Below, one piece after another: positions 30,926 through 56,068 of a DNA stretch of 64,000 nucleotides. Location: the NCBI GenBank assembly GCA_030612765.1, contig JAUWNG010000003.1, positions 1-64,000 on the forward strand. The letters run 5' to 3'. The translations under genes were made by a program, and so were the position numbers. The stretch's first letter is position 1. Each line of letters begins with the position of its first letter. Under the pieces are notes generated by a model. It ran no database searches. It was given only the letters and a program-made list of their open reading frames with translations, and was not told the DNA's origin. The DNA is from Planctomycetota bacterium. Lineage in GTDB: Bacteria; Planctomycetota; Planctomycetia; Pirellulales; Thermoguttaceae.

Positions 30926-30943
30926 TTGATGGTATCATCTCGT

Positions 30944-31223
30944 CTGCACTTTCTGAAAAACCACCTGGCTTACCCAGGTTACAATAGCCAAATTTCAAAG
31001 ATTTCGGAATTACTGTGTGTTCGGTGATCGAGGCCAAGAGTACGGAAAATGTGTGCCGAGCCTGTTGCACTGTAAGTACTTACGGCGTGGTTCATGTAAA
31101 TGACTTCAGCGACGGAACCTTGATTTTAGGGAACTTTGGGCCAGGACGAGCCGGTCTTGCCGACCTCCAGCGGCTAATCAACGCATAAGATGGGAAGATT
31201 GGGTGTTTTTTCAGAAAGTGCAG
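30944..31223. mobile_element. MITE-like element with perfect TIRs and a 7-bp TSD
   Basis: CTGCACTTTCTGAAAAA ... TTTTTCAGAAAGTGCAG (17/17 TIR); ATCTCGT at 30937-30943 and 31224-31230; no transposase ORF. Confidence 0.8.
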
Positions 31224-31287
31224 ATCTCGTCAACACGGCTTAATTATGTCTTGAGTTACTTCTGTATTATCGCATAAGTATTAGCCC

Positions 31288-55656: not shown

Positions 55657-55882
55657 GGTAACCGGGAATCGTCGATGGCCGGCGGCGTGGATCACGAAAT
55701 ACCCCCCATTTGACCTCTCGATTCTCACAGTGTACCAAGTGACCGGAAATTTATTAGCCGGTATCCTCAATAATCCCGAGGATGTCCGAAATTTCGTCCA
55801 TTTCTCGACTTTTCACTGATTCCTGGTTCCCACGCTCTGAGGTTGTGAATTTTTCAAATTGGCGCCATCACGACCACAATTC

Positions 55883-55940
55883 GTAGGGTGCGTGAAACGC
55901 ACCATGTGCTACCGGTTGTGGTGCGTTTCACGCACCCTAC
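55883..55940. repeat. GTAGGGTG-type hairpin
   Basis: Perfect 22-nt arms GTAGGGTGCGTGAAACGCACCA / TGGTGCGTTTCACGCACCCTAC. Confidence 0.9.
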
Positions 55941-56068
55941 AAAAAATTCACAACCTCTCTGCGTCGCCTGTCGCTGGTTCCCTTGACCCGCTTATGTTGC
56001 TTTTTTCGGATGTGCGACTTGCTCTCCGAATGCCGATAAAAACGATATGCGGGATTACACATAGGCTC

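Follow-up and report, generated by a model that had tools for sequence, protein, structure and literature searches.

The element lying between two putative polysaccharide genes at positions 30,944 to 31,223 of the window, the 64-kb stretch of DNA that was analysed, is very probably a type II MITE of 280 bp, the TIRs of which would be the sites for a DDE transposase of the IS701 family supplied in trans, inserted at a 7-bp staggered target, ATCTCGT. The features of the element and its borders are as follows.

30937..30943, no strand: left copy of the 7-bp target site duplication ATCTCGT (from the sequence)
30944..30960, + strand: left TIR, 17 bp, CTGCACTTTCTGAAAAA, extending to 22-23 bp if one mismatch is allowed (from the sequence; shared exactly by a multicopy IS of the congener G002 at its left end)
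30961..31206, no strand: interior of the putative MITE, unique, unlike the IS interior and unlike other MITEs (sequence comparison)
30963..30979, - strand: weak terminator-like hairpin, leftward out of the element (terminator scan)
31015..31188, + strand: GTG ORF of 57 aa that most likely arose by chance (ORF list, searches and random sequences)
31207..31223, - strand: right TIR, exact reverse complement of the left TIR (from the sequence)
31224..31230, no strand: right copy of the 7-bp target site duplication ATCTCGT (from the sequence)

The original prediction described a 280-bp non-autonomous transposable element with perfect 17-bp TIRs and a 7-bp target duplication, and it was borne out: CTGCACTTTCTGAAAAA at 30944-30960 is matched by its exact reverse complement at 31207-31223, the ATCTCGT copies adjoin the two ends directly, and the same ends recur elsewhere in many copies, both on full-length IS and on other MITEs. 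In the 64-kb window, this is the only place where an exact inverted repeat of at least 12 bp is flanked by a direct repeat of at least 6 bp, and twenty Markov windows contained no case of even a 12-bp inverted repeat with a 5-bp direct repeat. The combination of 17-bp TIRs and a 7-bp duplication is thus far beyond chance. The arms fold strongly (z -3.5), as would be expected if the structure were a chance or structural hairpin, such as an immobile terminator or RNA element. However, the duplication is exact, the ends are common to many mobile copies and an Rfam search of the element found no match, so that the probability of such a hairpin is close to nil; the ends shared with duplicated copies have in practice already refuted it. 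An RNA family reading was likewise rejected on the Rfam result. The scans found a single terminator-like site in the element, leftward and weak, where shuffled sequences average 0.6, and no promoter.

The intergenic position was also as predicted. The upstream neighbour is a polysaccharide pyruvyl transferase gene (PF04230), and the downstream neighbour is putatively glycosyltransferase-like, with a DUF6716 match just under the cut-off. Because the duplication starts 11 bp past the stop codon of the former and ends 57 bp before the latter, the element breaks no gene. Its G+C content is 48%, while that of the window is 59% and those of the two neighbouring genes are 50% and 61%. A recent insertion is plausible from the perfect ends and intact duplication. 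When flanks were compared for an empty site, no homologue of the locus was found at the DNA level in the congeners G001 and G002 or in seven further genomes.

The genome that carries the element has 64 matches to PF07596, a domain that is a planctomycete hallmark, vs. none in 14 control genomes, which indicates Planctomycetota. We searched this genome, an assembly of 228 contigs that is 87.6% complete, and found the 280-bp element in a single copy. The exact 17-bp end occurs only at this element, and two further places match it with one mismatch. One of these, on contig C42, is a single, partnerless end whose place is conserved with G002. The other, on contig C132, belongs to a deleted IS701, whose end it forms; a piece of IS701 transposase (a 167-aa frame) is joined to such an end, and the remnant shares 92-96% identity with one in G002. 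No intact IS701-type transposase was found in the assembled genome, only this deleted remnant; therefore, the mobilising transposase is either unassembled or lost. A copy of a REP-like palindrome stops 2 bp short of the remnant's end (L005 1431-1517; G000:C132:32249-32335).

A repeat of 137 bp that encloses this palindrome occurs in the window itself, at 55830-55966. The palindrome is GTAG-tagged (GTAGGGTGCGTGAAACGCACCA...), and the repeat is present in dozens of copies in this genome, G002 and G027. GTAG REPs are already known, Planctomycetes included (PMC3733652). The outer arms of the repeat, AGGTTGTGAATT with CTCTG repeats (55840-55956), resemble a second small element.

The search for further copies of the TIR and for a full-length IS, which had been proposed as a check, found both in other genomes, and these ends are therefore not peculiar to one genome. 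We scanned 119 genomes of the taxonomic family for the TIR, allowing one mismatch and using the reversed pattern as a control. Such ends are abundant in some of these genomes: there were 44 in G027, 51 in G011, 27 in G006, 22 in G070 and 14 in the congener G002, vs. 0-1 for the control. In G011, G006 and G070, such end pairs enclose small elements of 230-255 bp and of 58 bp. These sister MITEs are multicopy in all three genomes, and several have 7-8 bp duplications, some with one mismatch; their interiors differ from that of the window element. Each of the 58-bp elements at L056 379-436, L057 320-377 and L069 2312-2369 is a near-perfect palindrome in which two IS ends meet head to head. Two of the three have 7-bp duplications (one with a mismatch), and all can be described as minimal MITEs with the appearance of two-way terminators.

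No further copy of the 280-bp element itself was found in 396 genomes of the order, and a search of GTDB genomes for the two-ended TIR pattern at 252-282 bp gave no match, this being an exact pattern for which records near the source genome were possibly excluded. MITEs are usually multicopy, which is not strictly required of them; the single copy of the 280-bp element gives no sign that this sequence was amplified.

The IS family, which the original prediction had left unassigned, is IS701, as indicated by the transposase lying between nearly identical ends in G001. The IS in this congener is 1492 bp long and has a single intact ORF, whose 455-aa product scores 261 bits for NCBIfam NF049999 (IS701_3; cut-off 170) and contains the Pfam domains DDE_5 and DDE_Tnp_1. 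In G002, a multicopy IS shares all 17 bases of the MITE end at its left end and is one base off at its right end (CTGCACTTTCTGAGAAA). Copies with these ends have a full length of 1490-1492 bp, and both ends and length fit the published IS701 values (YACT; 1400-1550 bp; PMC2266710). It might be argued that the ends coincide with those of another family, for example the ISPepr1 subgroup of IS4, to which the duplication length and the CT end would correspond (PMC2266710). However, the IS4 models reach at most about 25 bits on the G001 transposase, below their cut-offs, vs. 261 bits for IS701_3, and its motif FADR...E......K is a YREK with F in place of the tyrosine, a residue missing in most IS701 (PMC2266710); membership of such a family is therefore very unlikely. 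From the shared ends, we infer that an IS701 transposase of the G001/G002 type moved the window copy.

In several IS copies, the stretch that separates the left IS end from the transposase start contains a conserved inverted repeat, GGCTCTTCCgTCA ... GGAGGAGCC AAGGATGG (L035 600-670, L036, L006, L076). If transcription reads through from outside, this repeat could mask the ribosome binding site and so guard against it.

The likeness between the element and the autonomous IS is confined to the TIRs. No match to the interior turned up in the 396 genomes of the order, and none among the fetched loci; against the fetched IS and MITEs there was no nucleotide match, and translation in six frames gave no similarity to a transposase. 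An origin of the interior as a fragment of a fetched IS was thus rejected. In principle, the element might still be a type I MITE, that is, an internally deleted IS701 copy whose undescribed parent IS had another interior. Its ends are IS ends, and internally deleted IS701 copies do exist in the same genome and in G002; nevertheless, the lack of any nucleotide match or transposase similarity in the interior makes this origin unlikely, and the type II reading is preferred.

The GTG ORF that had been noted inside the element (31015-31188, 57 aa) is present, and the statement that no transposase lies within the element held. This open frame takes up much of the interior, as it would if the element were a small mobile cassette in which a real passenger gene was moved by the ends. 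However, an ORF of this length or more turns up in 29% of random sequences matched for dinucleotide composition, the frame matched neither Pfam nor NCBIfam, and it had no relative in the 119 genomes of the family, the GTDB genome collection or plasmids. A passenger cassette is accordingly highly improbable, the candidate gene was rejected, and the ORF is most likely non-coding. The interior of the type II MITE presumably has no function of its own.

We examined whether a 7-bp duplication is a property of the IS that share these ends. Because contigs of G027 and G002 are interrupted at IS copies, flanks of left ends were matched to flanks of right ends. Eleven IS copies with identical repeats were recovered in this way, 7 of them with 7 bp, 3 with 8 bp and 1 with 6 bp; in G027, 21 x 16 / 4^7 = 0.02 chance pairs of at least 7 bp were expected vs. 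7 found. The CTGCACTTTC clade thus usually duplicates 7 bp, in line with the window element. No target duplication was present at the 1492-bp copy in G001, nor a clean one at the two further full copies that carry these ends, in G240 and G046. In a small set of 15 target sites, from IS as well as MITE copies, A or T occupied position 1 in 14 and position 7 in 14, with the 8-bp targets placed in a register that the analyst chose.

In addition, we compared IS of other genomes. A full IS in G039, from another family of the same order, has a transposase 70% identical and GTTTTAA at both sides; an IS in G282 (transposase 44% identical) has a 10-bp duplication, TTTTGGTCAA; and distant IS701 relatives (about 29% identical) have a 4-bp CTAG duplication. 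All of these transposases score as IS701_3. An IS701-type element of 1660 bp with this 10-bp duplication, TTTTGGTCAA, lies at L162 1425-3104 and has the TIR CTGCACTTTAGG. The published duplication is 4 bp for IS701 (PMC2266710) and 5 bp for ISDge5 (PMC6843628). The transposase places the clade in IS701, but its duplications are of another length, and we therefore describe the window element as having the ends of an IS701-type IS, not of a typical IS701. It seems rather probable that the stagger, fixed at 4 bp in the family, has lengthened in the clade with CTGCACTTTC ends to about 7 bp (W-N5-W targets) and, in a sister line, to as much as 10 bp. If this shift is true, these IS form a natural series on how a DDE transposase sets the spacing of strand transfer.

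The insertion may be pictured as follows. An IS701-family DDE transposase acting in trans would have recognised and cleaved the TIRs, either excising the MITE from a donor site or copying it from the donor. The MITE ends would then have been joined to the staggered 7-bp target ATCTCGT in the gap between the two polysaccharide genes, and gap repair would have produced the 7-bp direct repeats.

A literature search that was thin on subscription journals yielded no paper on IS701-ended MITEs, nor on any MITEs of the group that carry the present ends, and a review of prokaryotic MITEs (PMC10969869) does not mention the IS701 family. The element is an ordinary MITE whose ends can now be assigned to the IS701 type, and the 7-bp duplication of the IS clade is of modest interest. 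An orphan MITE thereby receives a named source, and an IS701 clade with MITEs and 7-bp duplications is documented as widespread in one family of what are probably planctomycetes. This should be of use in annotating draft genomes of the group, whose contigs these IS copies break, and as a comparison set on what sets target-duplication length.

Among known systems, the element resembles type II prokaryotic MITEs such as QMITE2 of Coxiella burnetii (7-9 bp DR, 23-29 bp TIR) and Chunjie of Geobacter (PMC10969869) in being shorter than 500 bp, having TIRs and direct repeats, lacking a transposase and resembling an autonomous element at its ends only. It differs from them in that it is single-copy, its interior is unique and its ends are IS701-type. 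The ISPepr1 subgroup of IS4 shares duplications of 7-8 bp and 5'-CT ends with the present IS (PMC2266710), whereas the transposase here scores as IS701 rather than IS4 and, without the tyrosine, has an incomplete YREK. The partner IS agree with the IS701 family (PMC2266710; NF049999) in their length of 1490-1492 bp, their YACT-fitting ends, their DDE_5 transposase and their YREK without the tyrosine, and depart from it in duplications of 7 bp (6-8 bp across the 11 full copies, 7 bp at the window element) instead of exactly 4, the relative in G282, of the same order, reaching 10 bp (TTTTGGTCAA).
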